From positions 1 to 53,472 of the forward strand of contig CALXRV010000016.1 in the NCBI GenBank assembly GCA_944390945.1: a stretch of 53,472 nt of DNA, read 5' to 3'. Below, in pieces: positions 136 through 13,026 of this stretch (position 1 is its first letter; every line of letters starts with the position of its first letter). The stretch comes from an uncultured Clostridia bacterium. Its GTDB lineage: Bacteria; Bacillota; Dehalobacteriia; UBA4068. The notes below the pieces were generated by a model. It did not search any database. It was not told where the DNA came from and was given only the letters and a program-made list of their open reading frames with translations. The translations under genes were made by a program, and so were the position numbers.

Positions 136-1524
136 ATGTCTCAGACACCAACAACGGCAAAGAAAAAGAAATTTTCCATGCCGGATACTTATGTCATCGT
201 TTTTGCGCTGGTTATCGTGGCTTGCATTCTGACCTATATCATCCCCGCCGGCGTTTATGATACGGTGGAAGGCAGCAAAGCGGTCGATCCGGATTCTTTC
301 CATTTTGTGGAAGAGTCGCCGGCTACGATCGGTGATTTCCTCAACAGCTTTATGGCCGGCCTTTCGCAGGGCCGCAGCACGATCTTCGCCGTGTTCCTGA
401 TCGGCGGCGCGTTCCAGATCCTGATGGATACCGGTTCGGTCGACGCGATGCTGGCGCTGGCGATTAAAAAGACAAAGGGCCGTTACAACCTGATCATTCC
501 GGTGGTGATCACCGTGATGAGCCTGCTCGGCGCACTTGGCGTGGGCAACAATGTCGGCCTGGCTTTTGTCCCGATCCTGATTATTCTCGCCCGAAGGCTG
601 CGTTTGGATACGATTGTGGTGGTCGGCTGCCTCTACCTGGCATCCAATACCGGTTTCTCCATTTCGCCGGTCAACCCGTTCACCGTTCTGCTCGGCCAGG
701 AACTGGCCGGCGTAACGCAGATGTCCGGCGCTATTCCGCGTTTGCTGATGTGGGCGCTGTTCACCGTCACCTGCATCTGGTATGTCCTGCGCTATTGCAA
801 GAAGATCCAGAAGGATCCGAGCCGTTCCATCACCGGCATTCTGGATGCGGAAGGCAATGAGAGCGACGAGATGATGGAAGTCAAGCCGCGTCATCTGATC
901 AACTTCGGCATTCTGATTGCGGTTTTCGCCGTTTATTCTTATGGCGGCATCAAGTTCAACTGGGGCATTGATTCGCTCGGCGCCTGCATGATGGTGCTTG
1001 CCGTGCTGACCGGTATCGTTGGCCGCCTCTCTGCCAATGAGATGGCCGCCTCCTTTGTCAACGGCGCGAAAACGATGATTTATTCCGCGCTGTTGATCGG
1101 CTTTGCCGGTGCAATCAGCGTGATTATGACCAATTCCAGCATCATCCATACGGTCGTCTATTACATCACGCTGCCGCTGGCGAACCTGCCTGCAGCAATC
1201 TCCGCCGTCGGCATGTTCATTGTCAACTTCTTCTTCAACTTCTTGACTTCTTCCGGTTCCGGCCAGTGCTATATCGTTATGCCGATCATGGCGCCGGTGG
1301 CGGACGTGCTGGAGATCTCCCGTCAGGTTGCCATCACCGCCTTCCAGTTCGGCGATGGCCTGGGCAATGTGCTCTCCCCGATTTCCGGCCTGATGATGGG
1401 CACGATCGGTATGGCGCATGTTCCGTATGAGAAGTGGCTGAAATTTGTGATTCCGTTCACGGTAATCCTCTCCGTGTTTGCCGCCATCTTCCTGGTTGCC
1501 GCCACCATGCTTGGCTGGTCCTGA
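136..1524 (+). CDS. YfcC/DcuC-family membrane carrier
   Basis: A polytopic inner-membrane carrier of 462 residues, about 12 hydrophobic segments. It resembles the YfcC branch of the C4-dicarboxylate anaerobic carrier family (PF03606). The conserved glycine- and asparagine-rich stretch GVGNNVGLAFVP near residue 137 and the SPVNPF motif near residue 180 support this. A second hydrophobic half follows a charged loop around residues 235-260. I chose ATG 136 because AAGGAGG lies 7 bases upstream; an ATG at 70 has no ribosome-binding site and adds a 22-residue tail that does not look like this family. The gene is followed by a terminator-like hairpin and then three amidohydrolases. It probably imports their substrate, an amino acid, peptide or acyl-amino acid, but the substrate cannot be read from the sequence. 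Confidence 0.85.
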   Translation: MSQTPTTAKKKKFSMPDTYVIVFALVIVACILTYIIPAGVYDTVEGSKAVDPDSFHFVEESPATIGDFLNSFMAGLSQGRSTIFAVFLIGGAFQILMDTGSVDAMLALAIKKTKGRYNLIIPVVITVMSLLGALGVGNNVGLAFVPILIILARRLRLDTIVVVGCLYLASNTGFSISPVNPFTVLLGQELAGVTQMSGAIPRLLMWALFTVTCIWYVLRYCKKIQKDPSRSITGILDAEGNESDEMMEVKPRHLINFGILIAVFAVYSYGGIKFNWGIDSLGACMMVLAVLTGIVGRLSANEMAASFVNGAKTMIYSALLIGFAGAISVIMTNSSIIHTVVYYITLPLANLPAAISAVGMFIVNFFFNFLTSSGSGQCYIVMPIMAPVADVLEISRQVAITAFQFGDGLGNVLSPISGLMMGTIGMAHVPYEKWLKFVIPFTVILSVFAAIFLVAATMLGWS

Positions 1525-1569
1525 TCTACCATAGCGGGCTGACTGTTTGCAAAACTAAGCACGGAAAAG

Positions 1570-1610
1570 CAGGGGCAGCGCAGCCGTACCCGGCTGCCTG
1601 CCCCTGTTTC
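1570..1610 (+). terminator. Hairpin terminator after the YfcC carrier
   Basis: A 9-bp outer stem (CAGGGGCAG with CTGCCCCTG) encloses a 6-bp inner stem (CAGCCG with CGGCTG, loop tacc). It is followed by the short T-rich run tttct. It may attenuate transcription rather than fully stop it, because the amidohydrolases downstream look functionally linked. Confidence 0.6.
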
Positions 1611-1681
1611 TCACAGTTGGAACAAGCAGTCATATAAAATTAAAGGGCAGTTTAAATAAAAAGAAATGGGAGGAAATGCGA

Positions 1682-2941
1682 ATGGCTTTTACGTTGATCA
1701 AATGTGGAAAACTGTACGATGGTATCAACGACACACTGCAGGACCAGATGGAAATTCTGATCGAGGATGATCTGATTCGCGAAGTGGGCAAGAAGATCAT
1801 CGCACCGCAGGGTGCGGAAGTGATTGACCTCAGCGATTGCACGGTGACACCAGGTATGATCGACGCACATGTCCATACGCAGCATGTGGACTGGCATACC
1901 CGCAACCATGATATCGTGTATCGCGGACCGGCCTGGAAGAGCATGTGCCATCTGTATAATGCGAGAGAAAGCCTGTTCCGCGGCTTTACCGCTTTACGCT
2001 GCATCGGCAGCTCCACCTATGAGGCGCGCGGAAGCCTGGCTGCCCGTGATATGATCGACCTTGGTTATTTTCCCGGTGCGCGCCTGACCGTCACCCCGCA
2101 TTATCTGGCGGATGTCGGCAGCCATGGCGATCATTCGCAGTATCTGCGGACCAATCCGGAGCTGAGCGAATGCTTTGCCAAGATGACGCCCACCATGGGT
2201 ACTGGCGTGGACTTCTTCCGCCATGTGGTGCGCAATGAAGTGAAGATGGGTTCGGATTTCATCAAGATCATGATCAACGGTGGTTTTTCCACGCCGAACG
2301 ATTCGCCGGATGACCAGCAGCTGAGCGATGAAGAGATCAAAGTGATCATCGATACGGCGCATGAGCTCGGCCGCACCGTCACGGCGCACATCTATAATTC
2401 CGAACAGATGAAAAAGGTTGCCCTGATGGGGATTGACGGCATGGAGCATGGTTCTCTCATCACCGAGGATACGGCTCGCGTGATGGAAGAACTGGATGTT
2501 TACCTTGTTCCCACCTTCTGCCCCTATGAGGATATCATTTATCCGAATGAAGAGACTCTGGCGAAAAAACTGCCGCAGTTCCGCGCTAAACTGATTCAGT
2601 ATTCGGAACGCCTGCAGGAAGGCCGCCGTGTGATCGTCAACAGCAAGCTGCGTTTGGGCTATGGCACGGACTTCGTCTCGGTCCATCAGTCTTATGAAAA
2701 TGGCTATGAATATGAAGCCTGGTTGAAATCCGGGATCGATCCTTTCCGCGCCCTGGCGGCTGCGACGCGGATCAATGCCGGCATCCTGCAGATTGCCGAT
2801 CGTGTCGGCACGCTGGAGCCGGGCAAACAGGCGGATATCGCCGGCTGGCGGCGCGATCTGCTGACAGATCCCAAAGCGCTGCTCGACTGCGCCTTTGTCA
2901 TGAAGGACGGCGTGCGCTATCCGACGGTTACCGTTGAATAA
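1682..2941 (+). CDS. Metal-dependent amidohydrolase, paralogue 1
   Basis: A 419-residue amidohydrolase-superfamily protein, related to imidazolonepropionase-like hydrolases and Xaa-Pro/Xaa-Lys dipeptidases. All expected binuclear-site ligands are visible: HVH after GMIDA (about residues 61-63), the probable carboxylated lysine in DFIKI (about 196), His in TAHIYN (about 237), His in MEHG (about 257) and Asp in GYGTDF (about 330). It should hydrolyse an amide bond in the cytoplasm. ATG 1682 has GGGAGG 8 bases upstream; the ATG at 1676 is too close to it. It is the first of three tandem paralogues that share framework sequence but differ just after HVH, where this copy reads TQHVDWHTRNH. That region lines the active site in this fold, so the three copies may differ in substrate. 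Confidence 0.85.
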   Translation: MAFTLIKCGKLYDGINDTLQDQMEILIEDDLIREVGKKIIAPQGAEVIDLSDCTVTPGMIDAHVHTQHVDWHTRNHDIVYRGPAWKSMCHLYNARESLFRGFTALRCIGSSTYEARGSLAARDMIDLGYFPGARLTVTPHYLADVGSHGDHSQYLRTNPELSECFAKMTPTMGTGVDFFRHVVRNEVKMGSDFIKIMINGGFSTPNDSPDDQQLSDEEIKVIIDTAHELGRTVTAHIYNSEQMKKVALMGIDGMEHGSLITEDTARVMEELDVYLVPTFCPYEDIIYPNEETLAKKLPQFRAKLIQYSERLQEGRRVIVNSKLRLGYGTDFVSVHQSYENGYEYEAWLKSGIDPFRALAAATRINAGILQIADRVGTLEPGKQADIAGWRRDLLTDPKALLDCAFVMKDGVRYPTVTVE

Positions 2942-3004
2942 ATTTTCCATTTTGTAGCATGGCACAGTATAGATTGACAGAAAGAATAACAAGGAGGAAT
3001 GATG

Positions 3005-4267
3005 ATGGCCTATACGCTGATTAAATGCGGCAGGCTCTACGATGGTTTGGTCGATGCCATTCAGGAGCAGATGGAGATTCTGGTTGAGGACAACCGGATC
3101 AAAGAAGTTGGGAAAAAGGTTTCCGCGCCTGCTGGCGCTGAAGTGATCGATCTCAGCAAGTTCACCGTGACCCCTGGTCTGATCGACGCGCATGTGCATC
3201 TGGGCATCGGCCGCTGGCCGGAACGCCGCCGCGAGACGGTATATGAAAACCCGGCCTACAAAGGCATGATGGTCCTGGCCAATGCGCGCGAGGCCATGCT
3301 GCGCGGGTTTACCACCCTGCGCGTGGTCGGCAATAACTGCGATGAAGGTTATGGCTCGATCGTTTCCAAGCGCCTGATCAACAGCGGATATTTCGAAGGC
3401 GCGCGCCTGGTGGTGGCGTCCTGCTATACCGGCACCACCCGCAGCCATGCGGATACGACGGCGCTCTTTGCCACCTATCCGGATGTGGCAACCTGGGTTT
3501 GGGAGCGCTATCCTGGCTTCATCAGCGGTGCGGAATCGATGCGCGAATGTATACGCCAGCAGGCAAAATTTGGCGCGGACTTCATCAAGCTGTATGCGAC
3601 CGGCGGCTTTTCCACCCCGGCGGACGGCCCGGAAGACGAATGCCTGACCGACGAAGAGATGAAGGCGGCGATCGATACCGCGCATCAGCTGAACCTGAAG
3701 ATCACCTCGCATTCCTATACGCCGGACCTGATCCGCAAGCAGGTGGAAATGGGCATCGACGGCATTGAGCACGGCGCTCTGCTGGATGACCGTGACCTGC
3801 TGCAGATGATGATCGAGCGCGGCGTGGAACTGGTTCCCACCTTCTGCCCCTATGACGGCATCGTTTATCAGGATGATGCCACGATCAAGCAGTGGCCGTA
3901 TGAGATGCAGATTAAGCTGCGTAAATATGGCGAATGGCTCATCCGCGCCCGCAAGGCGATCGTGGAAAGCGGTATTGCGTTTGGTTATGGTACGGATTTC
4001 GTCGCTTCGCATCACTGCTATGAATGCGGCTATGAATATGAGACCATGATCAAGAGCGGCGTCGATCCTTTCCGCGCCCTGGCGGCTGCGACGCGCGTCA
4101 ACAAAAACATCCTGGAAATGCCGGAAGACATCGGCGCGGTCGCGCCCGGTTATCTGGCGGACATCGCTGCCTGGCGGCGCGACCTGCTGACCGACCCGAA
4201 AGCTTTGCTGGATTGCGCCTTCGTGATGAAGGACGGCGTGGTCTACCAGGCCAAGACCGTGGAATAA
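3005..4267 (+). CDS. Metal-dependent amidohydrolase, paralogue 2
   Basis: The second of three tandem amidohydrolases, 420 residues, with the same complete metal-ligand set: HVH, DFIKL lysine, TSHSY histidine, IEHG histidine and GYGTDF aspartate. ATG 3005 is favoured from three consecutive in-frame ATGs (2999, 3002, 3005) because it sits 7 bases after AAGGAGG. The segment after HVH reads LGIGRWPERRRE, unlike paralogue 1. At the C-terminus the DNA is nearly identical to paralogue 1 for over 30 bases (compare 2740-2774 with 4061-4095), which suggests recent duplication or gene conversion. It lies 63 bases after paralogue 1 and is probably co-transcribed with it. The exact substrate is unknown. 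Confidence 0.85.
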   Translation: MAYTLIKCGRLYDGLVDAIQEQMEILVEDNRIKEVGKKVSAPAGAEVIDLSKFTVTPGLIDAHVHLGIGRWPERRRETVYENPAYKGMMVLANAREAMLRGFTTLRVVGNNCDEGYGSIVSKRLINSGYFEGARLVVASCYTGTTRSHADTTALFATYPDVATWVWERYPGFISGAESMRECIRQQAKFGADFIKLYATGGFSTPADGPEDECLTDEEMKAAIDTAHQLNLKITSHSYTPDLIRKQVEMGIDGIEHGALLDDRDLLQMMIERGVELVPTFCPYDGIVYQDDATIKQWPYEMQIKLRKYGEWLIRARKAIVESGIAFGYGTDFVASHHCYECGYEYETMIKSGVDPFRALAAATRVNKNILEMPEDIGAVAPGYLADIAAWRRDLLTDPKALLDCAFVMKDGVVYQAKTVE

Positions 4268-4297
4268 GCGAGAAAAGCAGAGGAAAGGAATACGCCT

Positions 4298-5560
4298 ATG
4301 AAAACATACATCATCAAATGCGGCAAGCTTTATGACGGCAAAACCGATGTTTTGCAGGACAAGATGGAGATTCTCGTTGAAGATAACCGGATCAAGGAAG
4401 TGGATAAGCATGTGGCGGCGCCGGCCGGCGCCGAGGTGATCGATCTTTCCGACGCTACCGTGACGCCCGGTCTGATCGACGCGCACGTACACTTCAGCTT
4501 TGGCGATTGGCGCACCCGCAGCCATGATGCGATCTATGAAGCGCCGATCTATAAAGGCATGTATGCGCTTTACAATGCCAAGAAATCGATGCTGCGCGGC
4601 TTTACCACCATCCGTCACTGCGGCTGCAACTGTGATGACGGCTATAGCGTGGTCGTGGCCAAGCGCTTGCTGAACGACGGGCATTTTGTCGGTTCGCGCA
4701 TCGTGCAGGCGCCGCATTATGTCAGCACCACGCGTGGCCACGGCGATTTCAGCCAGCTGATCATGACGAACCCCAAGCTTTCCACCTATATCTGGGAAAA
4801 TTATCCCGGCTTTGGTTCCGGTCCGGACATGTTCCGCGAAGTTGTACGCCGGCAGGTGAAGTATGGTGCGGATTTCATCAAGATGTTCGCTTCCGGCGGC
4901 TTCAATTCGGAAGCCGACGGCCCGGAAGACTATACCTTTACCGATGAGGAGATGCAGGCGATCATCGAAGTCTCGCATCAGATGCATATGAAGGTCGCTT
5001 CGCATACCTATTCGCCGGAACTGGCCTATAAGCAGATCGGAATGGGGATCGACGATATCGAGCATGGCGCGCTGTTCAACGATCCGAAACTGCTCGACCT
5101 GATGAAGCAGAAGGGCGTGCATTTCGTGCCGACCTTCACGCCATATGAGAGCGTGATCAAGCTGGATGAGGACAATCTGCGCAAGCAGACGCCCGGCATG
5201 CAGCGCAAGCTGCGCAAATATCAGGAATGGCTGATGGATGCGCGCAAGGTGATCGTCAACAGCGATATCCCGCTGGGCTATGGCACGGACTTTGTCGCCG
5301 TACACAACCCCTACGAAGGCGGCTGGGAATATAACAGTATGCTGACGAGTGGTGTGGATCCTTTCCGCGCGCTGGCCGCTGCGACGCGTGTGAACGCGGA
5401 TATCCTCAGCATGCCGAATGATATCGGCGCGATTGCTCCTGGTTATTATGCCGATATCGCAGCCTGGAAACGTGATCTGCTCACCGATCCGCATGCCCTG
5501 CTCGATTGCTACTTCGTGATGAAGGATGGCGTCGTCTACAAGACGGAGCAGGATATCTAA
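4298..5560 (+). CDS. Metal-dependent amidohydrolase, paralogue 3
   Basis: The third tandem amidohydrolase, 420 residues. The metal ligands are intact: HVH, DFIKM lysine, ASHTY histidine, IEHG histidine, GYGTDF aspartate. The variable segment after HVH reads FSFGDWRTRSHD. The GGFN-x-EADGPED loop after the lysine strand resembles paralogue 2 (GGFSTPADGPED) more than paralogue 1. Its start at ATG 4298 follows AGAGGAAAGGA at normal spacing, and it begins 30 bases after paralogue 2. All three copies end with a shared ADIA-W-RDLLTDP-ALLDC-FVMKDGV block, the metal-free beta-sandwich part of the fold. It is likely cytoplasmic and in the same transcript as its neighbours. Confidence 0.85.
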   Translation: MKTYIIKCGKLYDGKTDVLQDKMEILVEDNRIKEVDKHVAAPAGAEVIDLSDATVTPGLIDAHVHFSFGDWRTRSHDAIYEAPIYKGMYALYNAKKSMLRGFTTIRHCGCNCDDGYSVVVAKRLLNDGHFVGSRIVQAPHYVSTTRGHGDFSQLIMTNPKLSTYIWENYPGFGSGPDMFREVVRRQVKYGADFIKMFASGGFNSEADGPEDYTFTDEEMQAIIEVSHQMHMKVASHTYSPELAYKQIGMGIDDIEHGALFNDPKLLDLMKQKGVHFVPTFTPYESVIKLDEDNLRKQTPGMQRKLRKYQEWLMDARKVIVNSDIPLGYGTDFVAVHNPYEGGWEYNSMLTSGVDPFRALAAATRVNADILSMPNDIGAIAPGYYADIAAWKRDLLTDPHALLDCYFVMKDGVVYKTEQDI

Positions 5561-5570
5561 AGAAAGTGGG

Positions 5571-5661
5571 AGCCGGCGAGCGGCGATGCTGTGCCGCTCC
5601 CGGCTGCCGTTCTTGCGGCCGCGCAGACATGACGGGCCCTTGCCGTGGGCCCGTTATGTCT
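5571..5661 (+). other. Two large hairpins between amidohydrolase 3 and the LarA-like gene
   Basis: Two independent stem-loops fill this gap. The first, 5571-5605, pairs AGCCGG and AGCGGC with GCCGCT and CCGGCT. The second, 5625-5661, has a 15-bp stem (AGACATGACGGGCCC with its complement, one G-T pair) and a 7-base loop. Neither has a run of T after it, so they do not look like ordinary terminators. They may mark an RNA-processing or mRNA-stability boundary. Confidence 0.5.
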
Positions 5662-5695
5662 GTCCGACCGGCAGGAACCGGTAGGGGAGAAAAAT

Positions 5696-6946
5696 ATGGA
5701 AATTACGCTGGGTTATGGCCAACAAAAACTGCAACTGGAAATCGCAGAGAAAAATCTCTGCGGCGTTTTGCTGCCGGGCGAAATGCCATTGCCGGAAGAC
5801 ACGACTGCCCTGCTGGAACAGGCGCTTGATCATCCCATCGGCACGCCGCGCGTGGAGGAGATCGTGCGGTCGGGAGAAAAGGTCGTCATCATCACCAGCG
5901 ATATCACGCGACCGATGCCAACCAGGCTGGTGCTTCCGCCGTTGCTGGCGCGTTTGCAGGCTGCAGGCGTGGCGCCGTCGGATATCACGGTCGTCTTTGC
6001 CATGGGCATACATCGCCATCATACGGAAGAAGAACGGCAGCGCCTGCTGGGAGATGCAGCGGCAATGGGGATACATGCCTTGGACAGCGATGCGGAAGAT
6101 ACCGTGCATCTGGGCGTTACTTCCCGAGGGACGCCGGTGGATATTTTCCGTCTTGTCAGTGAGGCTGACCGGCGGATCTGCCTGGGCAATATCGAATATC
6201 ACTATTTTGCCGGCTATTCCGGCGGCGCAAAGGCGATCATGCCCGGGGTTTCCACGCGCCGGGCGATCCGCAGCAACCACAGCCATATGGCGGAGCCGGC
6301 GGCAGCGGCCGGTTGCCTGGAGGGAAATCCGGTGCGTGCGGATATCGAAGAAGCGGTGCAGCGTTTCTGTCCGGTAGATTTTATCTTTAACGTTGTGCTG
6401 GATACGCATAAGCGGATTGTTTATGCCGTGGCAGGCGACGTTCAGGCCGCGCATCGGGCTGGCTGCCGCTTTCTGGATGCGCATTTTTTGTGCCGCATTC
6501 CTGCGCCGGCGGATATCGTCGTTGTCTCGCAGGGCGGCGCACCGAAGGATTTGAATTTGTATCAGACGCAGAAGGCGCTGGATAATGCAAAATATGCGGT
6601 GCGCGACGGCGGCACGGTGATTTTGGTTGGCGCTTGTGGCGAAGGCTATGGTGAAGAGGTGTTCGCCAGCTGGATCCACGAGGCGAACAGCACGGATGAC
6701 CTGATCCGCCGTGTGCGGCAGGATTTCCAGCTGGGCGGTCATAAAGCGGCTGCCATCGCCATGGTGCGCAGCCGGGCGGAGATCTATTTCGTTTCCGAAA
6801 TGCCGACGGATACTGTGCCGCAGTGGCTGCTGCGCTCGTTCCCCTCGCCACAGCGTGCGCTGGATGCTGCGCTGGCGCGATACGGTACAGATGCATCTGT
6901 GCTTGTCATGCCGTATGGCGGTTCCACGCTGCCCCGTATCGACTGA
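5696..6946 (+). CDS. LarA-family nickel-dependent 2-hydroxyacid racemase
   Basis: A 416-residue member of the LarA/DUF2088 family. These enzymes racemise or epimerise 2-hydroxyacids using a nickel-pincer cofactor tethered to a lysine. The key residues align with lactate racemase: His in GIHRHH (about 105), then His, Lys and His at about 168, 178 and 194 in EYHYFAGYSGGAKAIMPG and the following SNHSHM. The spacing of 10 and 16 residues equals H174-K184-H200 of the Lactobacillus enzyme. ATG 5696 follows GGGGAGA. The cofactor-making genes larB, larC and larE are not in the window, so they must be elsewhere if the enzyme is active. The substrate could be lactate or another hydroxyacid released by the neighbouring amidohydrolases, which is inference. 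Confidence 0.8.
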   Translation: MEITLGYGQQKLQLEIAEKNLCGVLLPGEMPLPEDTTALLEQALDHPIGTPRVEEIVRSGEKVVIITSDITRPMPTRLVLPPLLARLQAAGVAPSDITVVFAMGIHRHHTEEERQRLLGDAAAMGIHALDSDAEDTVHLGVTSRGTPVDIFRLVSEADRRICLGNIEYHYFAGYSGGAKAIMPGVSTRRAIRSNHSHMAEPAAAAGCLEGNPVRADIEEAVQRFCPVDFIFNVVLDTHKRIVYAVAGDVQAAHRAGCRFLDAHFLCRIPAPADIVVVSQGGAPKDLNLYQTQKALDNAKYAVRDGGTVILVGACGEGYGEEVFASWIHEANSTDDLIRRVRQDFQLGGHKAAAIAMVRSRAEIYFVSEMPTDTVPQWLLRSFPSPQRALDAALARYGTDASVLVMPYGGSTLPRID

Positions 6947-6999
6947 ACCATATTTTACAAAACAGGGCCGGTGCTGCGGCCCGGCAAAGGAGAAACAGG

Positions 7000-8115
7000 A
7001 TGAGTGCCTTTCTGATCGTTTTTCTGATTATCTTTTTAGGCTATATCGTCGGTATGATCCGCATCGGCGGGTTCCGCGTCGGGGATGCCGGTGTGTTGTT
7101 GGTCGCATTGGTCTTTGGCCATTATGGCTTTACCGTGCCGGAGAGCATCCGCGATTTTGGGTTGATCGTATTCACGACATCAGTTGGTCTCTATTCCGGA
7201 CCGACCTTTGTTCGCAATATCCGCGGCAAAGCGCTTTCCTTTGCTGCGGTCGGTGCGGTGATCACGCTTTCCTGCCTGCTGTTTTGTTTTCTGATTATCC
7301 GCGGCAGCGGCATTACCGCCCCGCTTTGCGCCGGCATCCTTTCCGGTGCGATGACAAGTACCCCGGCGCTGGCTTCGGCGATCGAGGCTACGGGCGAGGC
7401 GATCGTTTCGGTTGGCTATGGCATCGCCTATCCGTTCGGCGTGCTGTGCGTCGTGCTTTTCGTACAGTTGGTGCCCAAGCTCTATCGGGTTGATCTGACG
7501 AAGATCCCCTTGCCTGCGCAGCCGGACGCTGCGGCTGGTGCATCGCGTGATTTTCGCATGGCGGATCCGCTGGGCCTGTGTAGTTTTGCCCTGGCCGCGC
7601 TGTTGGGTATTCTGCTGGGCAGTATTACGATTCCCCTGCCGGGCGGGGCCTCCTGCTCATTGGGGCTGGCGGGCGGACCGTTGTTTGCCGGTCTTATCGT
7701 CGGCCATTTCGGCCATGTCGGGCCGTACAGTTTGCGACCGCAACGCATTACGCTTGACCTACTGCGCGAAGGCGGTATGCTTCTTTTCTTGCTCAGCGCT
7801 GGCGTGGAAGCTGGCAGTGGCTTTGTCGAGGTGTTACAGCAGTACGGCTTTGGCCTGTTCCTTTGGGGCGTGGTGCTGACTGCTGTTCCGATGCTGCTCG
7901 GCTTTATTGTCGCACACTATTTGCTGAAACTGGATTTGCGCGCTTCTTTGGGCGCGATCTGCGGTGGCATGACGAGCACGCCTTCGCTCGGGACGTTGCT
8001 CACCCTGACGCGGGAAGATCAGGCCTCCAGCGAGGCGGTAAGCGTGGCGTATGCCGGCGCTTATCCGGTGGCCTTGATCATTCTCGTCATCTTTGTTCGT
8101 TTTCTGGTTATCTAG
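7000..8115 (+). CDS. AspT/YidE-family membrane carrier lacking TrkA-C domains
   Basis: A 371-residue membrane protein with two homologous hydrophobic halves. Each contains the AspT-type glycine-rich motif G-x-x-x-G-A/G-MTSTPAL (about residues 116-125 and 325-335). In AspT and YidE the halves are separated by soluble TrkA-C domains; here only a short hydrophilic loop (about 160-185) is present, so this is a minimal version. AspT exchanges aspartate for alanine, but family members differ in substrate. ATG 7000 has AAAGGAG 8 bases upstream. It is 53 bases after the LarA-like gene and likely in its operon. It may export an amino acid or organic acid product of the cluster. Confidence 0.7.
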   Translation: MSAFLIVFLIIFLGYIVGMIRIGGFRVGDAGVLLVALVFGHYGFTVPESIRDFGLIVFTTSVGLYSGPTFVRNIRGKALSFAAVGAVITLSCLLFCFLIIRGSGITAPLCAGILSGAMTSTPALASAIEATGEAIVSVGYGIAYPFGVLCVVLFVQLVPKLYRVDLTKIPLPAQPDAAAGASRDFRMADPLGLCSFALAALLGILLGSITIPLPGGASCSLGLAGGPLFAGLIVGHFGHVGPYSLRPQRITLDLLREGGMLLFLLSAGVEAGSGFVEVLQQYGFGLFLWGVVLTAVPMLLGFIVAHYLLKLDLRASLGAICGGMTSTPSLGTLLTLTREDQASSEAVSVAYAGAYPVALIILVIFVRFLVI

Positions 8116-8212: not shown

Positions 8213-8938
8213 ATGCGTGTTTATTATTTGAGCAAACGCGGCGGCAAACTGGCCGCCGCCTATTTTCTCGCGCTGGTGCTGCTGCTGGGTGGGGCCAGCA
8301 TTTTCCTGCCGGAAACCGCCCCTGCCGCCGCACAGCCGGAGCAGGACCCGGCCGCTTACCGCAGCGGCAGCAGCGAGAGCGATCTGGTCTCGCTTGCCAT
8401 CAATGTGGATTGGGGCGAAGAGTATCTGCCGCAGCTGCTTGCCGTGCTGGCGGAGAAAGATGTCCATGCAACATTTTTCCTTACCGGCCGTTGGTGCAAC
8501 AATCAGCCAGAGCTGGCGCGCCAAATTGCAGAGGCCGGTCACGAGATCGGCAATCATGGTTACAGTCACAGCAGCCCCAATGCTTCCAGCGAGGAGCAGA
8601 TTATTGAAGAGATCGAACGGACGGAAGCAGCGATCGAGGCTGCGACCGGCATAACTACGGATCTCTATGCACCGCCCTCGGGGGAAGAGGAGCAGCATGT
8701 ATTGGATGCTGCGGCAGAGGCCGGCTATCATACCATCCTTTGGAGCGTGGATACCATCGACTGGCAGCAGCCAACGGCGGAAACGATCGTCGAACGGGTC
8801 AGCAGCAAGATCCATGGCGGCGCGATCATCCTGGCGCATCCGACAGAACCGACGTTGCTCGCTTTGCCGCAGATCATCGATAGCCTGGAGGAGGAAGGAT
8901 ACCGCTTTGTGTCGGTTTCGGAAAATCTGGGTCTGTAG
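8213..8938 (+). CDS. ylxY: YlxY-type polysaccharide-deacetylase-like protein
   Basis: A 241-residue exported protein with an N-terminal membrane anchor (about residues 13-31) and a NodB-type fold. The catalytic motifs are partly altered. Motif 1 (TFDDG) is NVDWG, with one acidic residue. Motif 2 is intact as NHGYSH. Motif 3 (R-x-P-x-G) is YAPPSGE with the arginine lost. Motif 4 (DTIDW) and motif 5 (LAH) are present. This matches the YlxY group, whose members sit with mlpA and ymxH in Bacillus and Clostridia and whose enzymatic activity is doubtful. The start follows AAGGAGG. The last 32 bases overlap the next gene, so translation is probably coupled. A role at the cell surface or in sporulation is inferred from context. 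Confidence 0.8.
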   Translation: MRVYYLSKRGGKLAAAYFLALVLLLGGASIFLPETAPAAAQPEQDPAAYRSGSSESDLVSLAINVDWGEEYLPQLLAVLAEKDVHATFFLTGRWCNNQPELARQIAEAGHEIGNHGYSHSSPNASSEEQIIEEIERTEAAIEAATGITTDLYAPPSGEEEQHVLDAAAEAGYHTILWSVDTIDWQQPTAETIVERVSSKIHGGAIILAHPTEPTLLALPQIIDSLEEEGYRFVSVSENLGL

Positions 8939-9992
8939 CCTACTGGCGTTGCTGCTGGCATTGCTGCTGCCGGCGGGGACGGGTGCTATGGCTGCAGAAC
9001 CGGCAAACGATGCAGAACCGGCAAACGCTGCAACAGCGGCGGCAACGCCCGGTGCTGCGGCAGCATATGTAATGGAGCTGCACAGCGGGGAAACGATCTT
9101 CTCTCAAAACGGTGAGCAGATGCTGCCGCCTGCTTCCACCGGCAAGATCGTCACCGCACTGCTTACGTTGGACATGGCCGAAGATCTTGACGAGCGGACT
9201 ACGATCAGCGCACAGGCGGCTGCTGTGCCGGAAATGAGTATTGACCTGTGCGCCGGCGAAACGCTCACCCTGGCGGATTTGTTGACTGGCGCGCTGGTCC
9301 ATTCTGGCAATGACGCCTGCTTTGCTTTAGCAGAAGCCGTGGCTGGCAGTGAACCGCTATTTGTACATTGGTTGAATTTGAAGGCGGCCGTGCTTGGCGC
9401 CTATGCGACGCAGCTGTACAATCCGCACGGCTTGCCGGAAGAGGGGCATGCGATGAGTGCCGCCGATCTTGCACATTTGGCCGCTTATGCCATGCAACAC
9501 CCCTTTTTTGCGGAAACGGTGGCCAGCAAGCAGGCAGTGTTTGGCGAAGGGGAGAGCCGCCGCAGCTATACCAATACCAATAAACTGCTCTGGCAAGATG
9601 CGCATATCATCGGCATCAAAACCGGTACGACGGATGATGCCGGCAACTGCCTGGTCGCTGCTTATGCCGACCAGGCTGCGGTCTATCTTAGCGTAGTCTT
9701 TCACAGCCCGGACCGCTATGGCGAATCCCTCGCTCTGTTGCGGCAGGCAGCAGCAGAGCATCTGCTGCTGTTCCCGGTGAAAGCCGGCCAGGCATTGGCT
9801 TATTGGCCGGATGGGGCGGGCGGTGGCGAGCGGCTTTATGCAGCAGAGGATGTTTATATCCTGACAGAACGCGCTGCGGCAGAGGGCATCCGCGTACGCT
9901 GGGAACTGCCGCGGCGGCTGGTGTTCCTGGATGCGGCTGGTGCGGAAATCGCCTCCACCGCGTTGGTGAAGAAGCCGGCAGGGATTTCGTGA
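8907..9992 (+). CDS. D-alanyl-D-alanine carboxypeptidase (S11), TTG start
   Basis: A 361-residue penicillin-binding protein of the DacF/DacB type that trims the terminal D-Ala from peptidoglycan stem peptides outside the cell. The three active-site motifs are present: STGK (Ser about 76), SGN (about 133) and KTG (about 238). I place the start at TTG 8907 because GGAGGAGGAAGG lies 8 bases upstream. This start also gives a classic signal peptide: basic CRFRK, a long leucine-alanine core, and cleavage after GAMA. The start lies 32 bases inside ylxY, in another frame. A C-terminal beta-rich extension after about residue 270 fits the family. It is followed by a terminator hairpin. Confidence 0.88.
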   Translation: MCRFRKIWVCSLLALLLALLLPAGTGAMAAEPANDAEPANAATAAATPGAAAAYVMELHSGETIFSQNGEQMLPPASTGKIVTALLTLDMAEDLDERTTISAQAAAVPEMSIDLCAGETLTLADLLTGALVHSGNDACFALAEAVAGSEPLFVHWLNLKAAVLGAYATQLYNPHGLPEEGHAMSAADLAHLAAYAMQHPFFAETVASKQAVFGEGESRRSYTNTNKLLWQDAHIIGIKTGTTDDAGNCLVAAYADQAAVYLSVVFHSPDRYGESLALLRQAAAEHLLLFPVKAGQALAYWPDGAGGGERLYAAEDVYILTERAAAEGIRVRWELPRRLVFLDAAGAEIASTALVKKPAGIS

Positions 9993-10033
9993 AGACTGAC
10001 GAATGAATAAACCATGAATAATGAATAATAAAC

Positions 10034-10054
10034 AAAACCGCTGCCGGCGGTTTT
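10034..10054 (+). terminator. Small intrinsic terminator after the carboxypeptidase
   Basis: AAAACCGC pairs with GCGGTTTT over 8 bp around a 5-base loop, ending in TTTT. It lies between the carboxypeptidase and mlpA and may only partly stop transcription. Confidence 0.65.
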
Positions 10055-10094
10055 CTGCGGGCAGCCAAGATTGAGGGACAGAGAGGCATTTGGC

Positions 10095-11348
10095 GTGGAA
10101 AAGATTGTTTTGCATAATGGTTTGCGTCTGTTGGTTGAGTACATGCCGCATCTACGCTCCGTATCCACCGGCATTTGGGTGGATACCGGTTCCGCACATG
10201 AACAGGAAGGGCAGTTCGGCATTTCTCATCTGCTGGAGCATATGATGTTCAAAGGCACGACGCATCGTAGTGCGCTGGAGATCTCGTCGGCGATGGATAA
10301 TGTTGGCGGCGTACTCAACGCGTTTACCGGCAGGGAACAGACCTGCTATTATACGCGTTGTTTGGACGAGCAGGTGGAGCTGGCGTTGGATCTGCTGGCG
10401 GACATGTATCAGAATTCCCTGTTCGATGCAGCCGAACTGGAACGGGAAAAGAACGTGGTGATTGAAGAGATCAACATGTATGAGGATACGCCGGATGAGC
10501 GGGTGCTGGATTTGTTCGCACAGACGCTGTGGCCGCAACATGGCTATGGCCGCAGCATCTCCGGCAGTGCAGCGGATGTCGCTGCGCTGGACAGGCAGCA
10601 GGTGGTGGATTATCATCATGCGCATTATACGGCTGGGCAGACCGTGCTGGCGATGGCTGGCAGCATAGCGCCGCAGCGCGCGGCAGAGTTGGTGGAGCGC
10701 CTGTTTACCCCGCGTGCTGCAGCGGCGGCGCCGGAACGGTTGTCTCCGCCGCTGCAGAGCGCAGGGGGCGACGGTTATGTCGCCAAGAATATCGAGCAGA
10801 CGCATGTTTGCCTGGGATTTCCTGCATTTTCTGCCACGGATGATGATTATTATGCCGCTTCGATTTTGAACAGCGCATTTGGCGGCAGCTCTTCGGCACG
10901 CCTGTTCCAGGAGATTCGTGAAAAACGCGGCCTTTCCTATGGTGCCTACAGCTATTTCGATGCCTTTGACTGCGGCGGTTATTTCCTGGCCTATGCCTCG
11001 ACGCAGCCGGCGAATTGTGCAGAGTTGATCGACGTGATGGCAGAGGAGTTTCACCGGCTGGCAGAGGACGGCCTGACCGAAGATGAGGTGGAACGCAGTA
11101 AGCAGCAGCTAAAGGGCGCGATGTTGCTTAATATGGAAAGCACAAGCTATATGATGCGCAAGCTGGGGCGGCATGAGCTGACCTTTGGCCGCGTTTATTC
11201 GGTGGACGAGTTGGTCGCGCAGCTGATGGCCGTGACGCCGGAGGATGTGCGGCGCGTGGCGCGGCGTCTGGTCGTGCCGGGCCGGGCGGTACTGGCGCAG
11301 GTTGGGCCGCAGCAATGTCCGCGTTTTGCGGGGAGGTTGTTTGCATGA
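10095..11348 (+). CDS. mlpA: M16 zinc protease MlpA/YmxG
   Basis: A 417-residue pitrilysin-family protease. The inverted zinc motif HLLEH (His about 45 and 49) and the downstream glutamate in [12 protein letters not shown] (about 124-131) are present, followed by a second homologous half, as in mitochondrial processing peptidase-like proteins. It is probably cytoplasmic. In Bacillus this gene lies between ylxY and ymxH, as here. GTG 10095 is the preferred start because AGAGAGG lies 8 bases before it and the protein then begins [13 protein letters not shown], as in the family. A TTG at 10071 is possible but has no ribosome-binding site. The TGA overlaps the ATG of dut. Confidence 0.85.
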
Positions 11349-11794
11349 TGGAGATCCTGCTGCAAAGATTACCGCATTTTGCCGGCCTGCCGCTGCCCGC
11401 TTATCAGAGTGCGCAGGCGGCAGGGATGGACCTGCCCGCTGCCTGTGCGGCGGATGCGCCGCTCGTGATCGAACCCGGCGAATGGGCCGCGGTGCCGACC
11501 GGGCTGGCTATTGCGCTGCCGGCTGGATATGAAGCGCAGGTACGGCCGCGTTCCGGCCTGGCGGCGAAGCATGGGATCACCGTGCTCAATGCGCCGGGTA
11601 CGATCGACGCGGATTACCGTGGCGAGATCAAGGTGCTGCTGATCAACCATGGCCAGACGCCGTTTGCCGTGGAGCGGGGCATGCGCATCGCACAACTGGT
11701 GATCGCGCCGGTACTGCAGGCCGGGCTGAAGCCGGTGGAGACGCTGCCGGAAAGCGGACGCGGCAGCGGCGGATTCGGCAGCAGCGGCATTTGA
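11345..11794 (+). CDS. dut: dUTP diphosphatase
   Basis: A 149-residue trimeric-type dUTPase that converts dUTP to dUMP, keeping uracil out of DNA and supplying dTMP synthesis. All five family motifs are visible: [31 protein letters not shown] and the glycine-rich tail GSGGFGSSG that closes over the nucleotide. ATG 11345 overlaps the mlpA stop as ATGA and has GGGAGG 8 bases upstream. ATG 11348 is an alternative. Confidence 0.93.
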
Positions 11795-11857
11795 ATAGCC
11801 TGCGGCTGCGCGGCCTTGGGCTGCGACAGCCGAGGAGGAGATAGGCGGACATAGACG

Positions 11858-11887
11858 ACCCCCATACCGCATAGGCTGTATGGGGGT
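11858..11887 (+). promoter_or_regulatory. Hairpin covering the ymxH ribosome-binding site
   Basis: A perfect 10-bp stem (ACCCCCATAC with GTATGGGGGT) and a 10-base loop end 6 bases before the ymxH ATG. The only Shine-Dalgarno-like sequence at proper distance, GGGGGTG, is the 3' arm of the stem. The stem should block ribosome loading unless opened. A better GGAGGAG at 11833-11839 is too far from the start to serve it. Confidence 0.6.
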
Positions 11888-11893
11888 GATTTC

Positions 11894-12127
11894 ATGCGTT
11901 TATCCGAGCTGGCCGGCAAACGGATACTCAATCTGTATGATGGCGAGATCATCGGCTCTGCCGGTGAAAGTGATCTGCTGATCGATCCGAAAAACGGTGC
12001 GATCAGCGAGATCCTGATCCCACCCGGCCGCGGCATGTCCGGCCGTGGCCGTGGGCTTTCCATTCCCTGGGCAGCAGTAAAAAAGGTTGGCGCTGAGGTG
12101 ATCGTCATCGATCTGGAATATGACTGA
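11894..12127 (+). CDS. ymxH: YlmC/YmxH sporulation protein (PRC-barrel)
   Basis: A 77-residue protein of the YlmC/YmxH family, a single PRC-barrel-like beta domain. The typical opening RLSELAGKRILNLYDGE-IG and the ILIP core strand are seen. Family members are linked to sporulation by genome context, but no precise activity is known. The gene order mlpA-ymxH is conserved in spore formers. Its translation start lies just after a strong hairpin that holds the Shine-Dalgarno sequence, so expression may be controlled at translation. Confidence 0.8.
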   Translation: MRLSELAGKRILNLYDGEIIGSAGESDLLIDPKNGAISEILIPPGRGMSGRGRGLSIPWAAVKKVGAEVIVIDLEYD

Positions 12128-12225
12128 GCATTCAGCGGTATAGATTGCGCGCTTTTCGCGCAACAGGCAGGAAAATCCCACCTTTGCTGCGAATTTTAAC
12201 GAATGCCTGCAAAGGAGGGAGACGG

Positions 12226-13026
12226 ATGACAGAACAGATCAAAATTTTGTTGAACGGTGCGGCCGGCAAAATGGGCCGTGCGATGGCTGCCGGTATCCTC
12301 GGTGAGGCGGATATGCAGCTGGTCGGCGCGGTAGACCGCAGCTGCATCGGCTGTGATATCGGTGAGCTTTCCGGCGGCGTGGCCATCGGCGTGAAGGTGA
12401 GCGATGATCTGGCAGCAAGCGTTAAACGCTGCGGCGCGGATGTGATGCTGGATTTTACCACACCAGAGGCGGTAATGCGTAATATCCGCACTGCGCTCAG
12501 CGCCGGCCTGCCCTGCGTGGTCGGTACTACCGGTTTGACGGCAGCCGATCTGGAGGAGGCGGAAGCGCTGGCGCTGGCGAATGACGCACCGCTGTTTGTG
12601 GCGCCCAATTTTGCCCTGACCGCAGTGCTGATGATGCGTTTTGCCGCAGAAGCGGCGAAGTATTTCCCGCATTATGAGATCATCGAGATCCATAATGACC
12701 GCAAGATGGACGCGCCTTCCGGCACTGCGCTTTATACGGCGCAGATGATCGGCCGGGAGCGTGAACCATTTGCGCAGGGCGCGCTGAATTCTTTTGAGAC
12801 CCTACCCGGCTGCCGGGGCGGTGATTATCAGGGAGCGCGTATCCACAGCGTGCGGTTGCCCGGCGTGGTCGCCATCCAGGAGGTACTGTTTGGCGGACCG
12901 GGCCAGATGCTCAGCATCCGTCAGGATTCAACCAACCGGGATTGCTTTTTCCCCGGCGTGGCGCTTGCTTTACGTCGCATCCGCAGTCTGCACGGACTGG
13001 TGCAGGGATTGGAGAAGCTGCTTTAA
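12226..13026 (+). CDS. dapB: 4-hydroxy-tetrahydrodipicolinate reductase
   Basis: A 266-residue DapB, the NAD(P)H-dependent reductase that makes tetrahydrodipicolinate for lysine and diaminopimelate. In spore formers it uses the same precursor as dipicolinate synthesis. The nucleotide-binding loop NGAAGKMG is near residue 10. The signature region reads EIHNDRKMDAPSGTA (about 154-168): catalytic His and Lys are kept, but the usual second His is Asn. The later VAHQEV motif is VAIQEV. FGGPGQ and the FFPGV-LA-R end match the family. ATG 12226 has AAAGGAGGG 6 bases upstream. A short inverted repeat TTGCGCG/CGCGCAA (12144-12162) lies in the leader. Confidence 0.88.
   Translation: MTEQIKILLNGAAGKMGRAMAAGILGEADMQLVGAVDRSCIGCDIGELSGGVAIGVKVSDDLAASVKRCGADVMLDFTTPEAVMRNIRTALSAGLPCVVGTTGLTAADLEEAEALALANDAPLFVAPNFALTAVLMMRFAAEAAKYFPHYEIIEIHNDRKMDAPSGTALYTAQMIGREREPFAQGALNSFETLPGCRGGDYQGARIHSVRLPGVVAIQEVLFGGPGQMLSIRQDSTNRDCFFPGVALALRRIRSLHGLVQGLEKLL

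Follow-up and report, generated by a model that had tools for sequence, protein, structure and literature searches.

Do the six genes at the start of this contig form one catabolic system for hydroxyacid amides, as the original prediction proposed, or do they serve separate functions? The window covers contig C16 in full (53,472 nucleotides); the contig belongs to a draft genome of 1.89 Mb with an estimated completeness of 85%, and the block begins at the contig start. The ORF listing and the Pfam and NCBIfam profiles placed six contiguous, unbroken genes at 136–8115, all on the plus strand, and the coordinates and gene calls given originally were correct. A YfcC-type carrier of the DcuC family (136–1524, 462 aa; PF03606, 291 bits, 2e-86) is followed by three amidohydrolases of the M38/cog1228 group, which matched PF01979 with 78–130 bits: AH1 (1682–2941; alternative start 1676, with 1682 the probable one), AH2 (3005–4267; alternative start 2999, with 3005 the probable one), and AH3 (4298–5560). 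Next come a LarA-family racemase (5696–6946; Lar_N 227 bits, LarA_C 66 bits) and a short AspT/YidE-type carrier (7000–8115, 371 aa; PF06826, 240 bits, 2e-71, two half-repeats). The intergenic gaps across the block measure 30–157 bp, and each gene is preceded by a plausible ribosome-binding site. A 1166-aa open frame on the minus strand (1994–5494), antisense to the whole triplet, was dismissed as a mechanical shadow of codon usage and not a gene.

Contamination as the source of the block was rejected: the M16 gene downstream on the same contig best matches the genus (60–62%), and the genes beyond the block are arranged as they are in the genus. The PdaB-, DacF-, M16-, Dut-, and DapB-like genes (window 8213–13026) keep their order across the family, and the region upstream of PdaB varies by genome. 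In the same-genus genome G001, a CwlD-like gene, not the six-gene block, precedes PdaB-DacF-M16-Dut-DapB.

The three adjacent amidohydrolases were aligned with their family, which confirmed that they are paralogues with intact metal ligands; they are, however, three of eight such paralogues in the genome. Pairwise identity among them is 51–61%, with AH2 and AH3 at 61%. All six metal ligands (H63, H65, K195, H236, H256, and D331 in AH3 numbering) are present in AH1–AH3, and they are kept in all 39 family rows of the alignment bar one gap and one exception. An oxyanion histidine (His148) and an alpha-carboxylate tyrosine (Tyr238) are also present in the three proteins; the tyrosine is invariant in the 39 rows and the histidine is kept in 36 of them. 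These two roles have been assigned in PmAcy (H162, Y255)/3MKV (PMC10781821). The best structural-database matches of AH1–AH3 were solved M38/cog1228 amidohydrolases, including the ochratoxin hydrolases 8ihq and 4c5y. Every solved relative for which PMC11342369 lists a known activity (3DUG, 2QS8, 3MKV, 3MTW, and 4C5Z/ADH3) frees the C-terminal amino acid of its substrate, be this a dipeptide, a peptide, or an acyl conjugate. The class originally assigned, enzymes that split acyl-amino-acid or dipeptide bonds, is supported by the active-site residues and by the activities of these relatives. The general chemistry predicted for AH1–AH3, in which a dipeptide or acyl conjugate loses its C-terminal amino acid, is well founded; the specificity for dipeptides or acyl-amino acids we infer.

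Comparison with individual relatives sets the clade apart. The M38/cog1228 aminoacylases and prolidases PmAcy, Sgx9260b (3MKV), and Sgx9260c (3FEQ/3N2C) have the same binuclear HxH/Lys/His/His/Asp centre, oxyanion His, and alpha-carboxylate Tyr, but AH1–AH3 are distant from them in sequence, carry GGF where those enzymes have GGV after the bridging Lys, and have a C-terminal W-x-R-D-L-L-x-D signature. Ochratoxinase and ADH3-type enzymes (4C5Y, 8IHQ) share the fold group, the metal ligands, and the release of a C-terminal amino acid, whereas the position that contacts the carboxylate is His in them and Tyr in AH1–AH3, and the pocket Val is Phe in AH1–AH3. Since the position of the AnOTA pocket Val253 is Phe (GGF) in all 39 family rows, the substrate lists of relatives do not transfer to the clade. 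Against the Xaa-Pro dipeptidase model NF051886, AH1–AH3 scored 211–240 bits, far below the 500-bit cut-off. We know of no activity for any enzyme of this clade. Membership in the MetalloBSH group was considered and rejected, as AH1–AH3 are ~420 aa long, match Amidohydro_1 best, and have no room for an extra domain. The MetalloBSH of Bilophila, a gut anaerobe, likewise hydrolyses amides and belongs to the amidohydrolase superfamily, and it is sometimes found in tandem, but it is of the Amidohydro_3/YtcJ type, 945 aa long, and secreted, with an extra C-terminal domain (PMC13081902).

The eight close copies of the hydrolase in the genome are spread over six contigs, the five further paralogues being located at C11:1065–2330, C18:41112–42392, C28:24475–25734, C30:11416–12675, and C38:15–1190. 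At E ≤ 1e-90, no member of the clade was found in the 398 further genomes sampled from the phylum. The same-class genome G041, which came from a separate genome draw, carries one clade hydrolase (52%), and no additional genome of the class was found to have one. Beyond the phylum, the scan gave 29 loci of 40–77% identity, mostly in gut and rumen MAGs and isolates of Lachnospiraceae, Erysipelotrichaceae, and Oscillospiraceae, together with single members of Synergistaceae, Coriobacteriales, and Halobacteroidaceae. The clade is an uncharacterised one whose members come mainly from gut Firmicutes. A tree of 39 sequences placed the eight copies of this genome in scattered positions. AH2 and AH3 were sisters, and AH1 was sister, with support 100/100, to its nearest relative, a Lachnospiraceae MAG gene (L046, 77%); the C18 copy paired with an Erysipelotrichaceae gene, the C11 copy with a Lachnospiraceae gene, and the C30 copy with a Synergistaceae gene. 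The closest relatives of the individual copies thus come from different lineages, and repeated horizontal acquisition is the best explanation for their presence in this genome.

Two further amidohydrolase types were observed in these neighbourhoods. A second, more distant type (29–34% identity) lies repeatedly beside or near the first (L041:1303–2478, on C38; L059:7820–9007; L064:15528–16736; L071:4809–6182; L072:12614–13825), and in Bittarella it takes the third place in a tandem triplet. A third type (C18b) recurs, at 51% identity, near the first in Oscillospiraceae loci (L038:5533–6762, L051:1648–2751, L113:1541–2698), which also hold Dpp-like ABC genes and an M32 carboxypeptidase.

A recognised carrier was located at most two genes from the hydrolase in 16 of the 29 loci (at least 40% identity; raw counts, with some neighbours read by eye): AbgT in seven, SSS in three, YfcC in one, MFS in two, and a Dpp-type ABC system in three. 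DUF5058 was found at two more of the 29, and M32, S9, or M24 peptidases lie between or beside hydrolases in related loci. At the Bittarella locus, the three amidohydrolases in tandem are accompanied by an M20 peptidase and by a gene that resembles one for a membrane protein but had no match in Pfam. Carriers also adjoin the paralogues of this genome: SSS on C11, YfcC and SSS on C18, and AbgT on C28.

For the window carrier, the association could be followed within its own family. It is 54–58% identical to three YfcC proteins encoded directly beside clade hydrolases and 28% identical to an unlinked YfcC; mutually, the four hydrolase-linked YfcCs are 54–66% identical, against about 28–30% to the unlinked one. 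Among 399 genomes of the phylum, the linked subfamily occurs in one, the present genome, where both copies adjoin hydrolases, and the clade hydrolases are likewise confined to one of the 399. In the hydrolase tree, the C18 copy groups with those of L048 and G041, all YfcC-paired, and the C11 copy with that of L059, both SSS-paired. The YfcC-type carrier of the window is co-inherited with the hydrolases, and it is probably the importer of their substrates, the direction of transport being predicted. At 298 bits against NF008611 (putative basic amino acid antiporter; cut-off 500), it is below the cut-off and hence not the named YfcC equivalog. In G041, the YfcC carrier lies directly upstream of the hydrolase (L142:6263–8969), and methylmalonyl-CoA-mutase-like genes, read by eye, are found a few genes off.

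Similar pairings occur in known systems. In E. coli, abgABT serves p-aminobenzoyl-glutamate use and places an AbgT-type carrier beside an acyl-amino-acid-type hydrolase. In C. difficile, yfcC and the gene of an M20D amidohydrolase apparently form an operon that is preceded by a lysine riboswitch (PMC11477304). These two systems and the window have in common that a hydrolase of the acyl-amino-acid type adjoins an AbgT/DcuC-group carrier, but the hydrolase is of the M20 type in both of them and M38 in the window. No lysine riboswitch was found ahead of the window carrier, where 135 bp of upstream sequence is present. Rfam models detected no riboswitch that would point to a substrate, either in the window or in 17 related loci; two matches within the AspT gene of the window fell below threshold and were taken as chance. 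A literature search for AbgT/amidohydrolase clusters gave no match.

These neighbourhoods also bear on a non-nutritional reading, in which the hydrolases would serve detoxification, their substrate being an amide among xenobiotics or secondary metabolites, as it is for the ochratoxin hydrolases of the same group. The place of 8ihq and 4c5y among the closest solved structures speaks for it. Eight copies in one genome, together with carriers, and the peptidases found elsewhere point to nutrition instead, and ochratoxinase itself acts as a carboxypeptidase on dipeptides (PMC11342369), so that we regard detoxification as distinctly unlikely.

The racemase was assigned by profile scores and by alignment. 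LarA scored 548 bits against the LarAH6 malate racemase model NF052593, above its cut-off of 500, which supports the 2-hydroxyacid racemase originally named; against the lactate racemase model NF033504 it reached 339 bits, below the cut-off of 460. It aligned end to end with Mar2 (PDB 6D6Z, 3e-117) and keeps the catalytic, cofactor-binding, and substrate residues R72, H106, H169, K179, H195, Q292-K293, and GHK 348–350, the last of these motifs having been assigned to the second carboxylate of malate (PMC7583248). The second loop residue differs, Phe171 in the window protein and Lys173 in Mar2, and the two genes have different neighbours. The malate racemases LarAH6 and LarAH62 accept few substrates: malate and, with minor activity, tartrate (PMC11770544). 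The gene is single-copy, and larB, larC, and larE, for NPN synthesis, are all encoded in the genome. The larC gene is in two pieces (G000:C45:7828–8580 and G000:C27:3–617), probably owing to a contig break inside it. Two LarA relatives elsewhere adjoin hydro-lyases of the aconitase/isopropylmalate-dehydratase type, which fits a dicarboxylic hydroxyacid. LarA is, as judged from these sequence comparisons, predicted to be a nickel-pincer-nucleotide malate racemase of the LarAH6 (Mar2) family and not a lactate racemase. Lactoyl-amino acids, offered originally as an example substrate, are disfavoured by the score against the lactate model and by the absence of lactate activity in LarAH6/Mar2 (PMC7583248); a literature search for bacterial lactoyl-amino-acid hydrolysis gave no match.

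The last gene of the block contains no domain besides PF06826, in two stretches. Its product scored 155 bits against the aspartate-alanine antiporter model TIGR03802, below the cut-off of 547 set for the full-length protein, at its own length of 371 aa. It is probably a carboxylate or amino-acid exchanger. A conserved AspT-LarA pair was considered and was not seen in other genomes.

Whether the two halves of the block belong together was judged from related loci and from the gaps between the genes. LarA and the AspT-type carrier were found in none of the 29 related hydrolase loci (a few contigs were short), and a clade hydrolase or AspT-type gene in none of the 20 LarA loci inspected outside the window, 13 of which were viewed with several kilobases of flank and the remainder with ~1.5 kb. 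The single pathway for N-(2-hydroxyacyl)-amino acids proposed originally is left unsupported by these counts. The neighbourhood check suggested originally, with unrelated neighbours as its refuting condition, went against LarA, which was never beside hydrolase homologues in these loci; the tie between a carrier and the hydrolases stands. The observation behind the original prediction is confirmed and its interpretation partly supported. A literature search for hydrolase/LarA/AspT clusters gave no match.

The 135-bp gap between AH3 and LarA contains a hairpin at 5623–5663 (plus strand) with an uninterrupted 17-bp stem, G-T pairs allowed, and no T tail. It is the longest perfect-stem hairpin in the window; its core was found at one place in the genome, and the region 5555–5700 folds with z −6.8. 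A second strong hairpin, with a weak T tail, lies between the carrier and AH1 (1565–1614, plus strand; 1545–1630 folds at −43.8 kcal/mol, z −5.7) and is a possible terminator or attenuator. The absence of LarA from hydrolase loci and the hairpin-bearing gap favour two neighbouring units, and we consider it reasonably probable that the YfcC-type carrier and AH1–AH3 form an uptake-and-cleavage cassette and that LarA and the AspT-type carrier are separate from it.

A version of the single pathway could be built on malate: N-malyl (or other 2-hydroxydicarboxyl) conjugates would be imported, AH1–AH3 would free malate, LarA would invert it, and the AspT-type carrier would exchange it. The six genes are co-directional and contiguous, the LarA family acts on malate, and the whole block is missing upstream of PdaB-DacF-M16-Dut in G001, all of which agree with this scheme. 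It is nevertheless highly improbable, given that LarA stands beside hydrolases in none of the 29 loci elsewhere, that as a single-copy gene it cannot accompany the five paralogues on other contigs, and that strong hairpins and the 135-bp gap part it from AH3. The genes could also make up one operon lacking a common substrate, with LarA and the AspT-type gene co-transcribed since amino-acid fermentation handles malate or fumarate intermediates. The common strand, the short gaps, and the ribosome-binding sites throughout would suit such an operon; the hairpins at both unit borders and the lack of linkage of the LarA and AspT-type genes in other genomes make it unlikely. Under the two-unit reading, we infer separate transcription, a single transcript being possible for co-directional genes with short gaps.

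In the two-unit arrangement, the first unit would be a horizontally acquired cassette through which dipeptides or N-acyl-amino acids are taken up by the YfcC-type carrier and cleaved. AH1–AH3 would be cytoplasmic binuclear-metal hydrolases of diverged specificities that detach the C-terminal amino acid by cleaving its amide bond, and the amino acids freed would enter fermentation. Independently, LarA of the second unit would interconvert D- and L-malate, and the AspT-type carrier may exchange a C4-dicarboxylate or a related amino acid.

The chemistry is ordinary and LarA appears to be a routine malate racemase; the interest lies in an uncharacterised, mobile, carrier-swapping hydrolase family. 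Enzymes that form or cleave N-acyl- and peptidyl-amino acids control gut signalling metabolites and toxins, and most gut amidohydrolases are without an assigned substrate. Tentatively, and with more doubt than confidence, we suggest that the clade may be a toolkit that spreads by horizontal transfer throughout the gut. A single hydrolase scaffold would time and again have gained new carrier partners, every pair being dedicated to its own amino-acid conjugate from host or diet, perhaps including lactoyl-, malyl-, or other acyl-amino acids, and this bacterium would have gathered at least eight of the enzymes. Being mobile, linked to carriers, and recognisable by a clear signature in its sequences, the clade offers directly testable enzyme-substrate pairs: in each subclade, the carrier and the peptidase nearby narrow the range of likely substrates.
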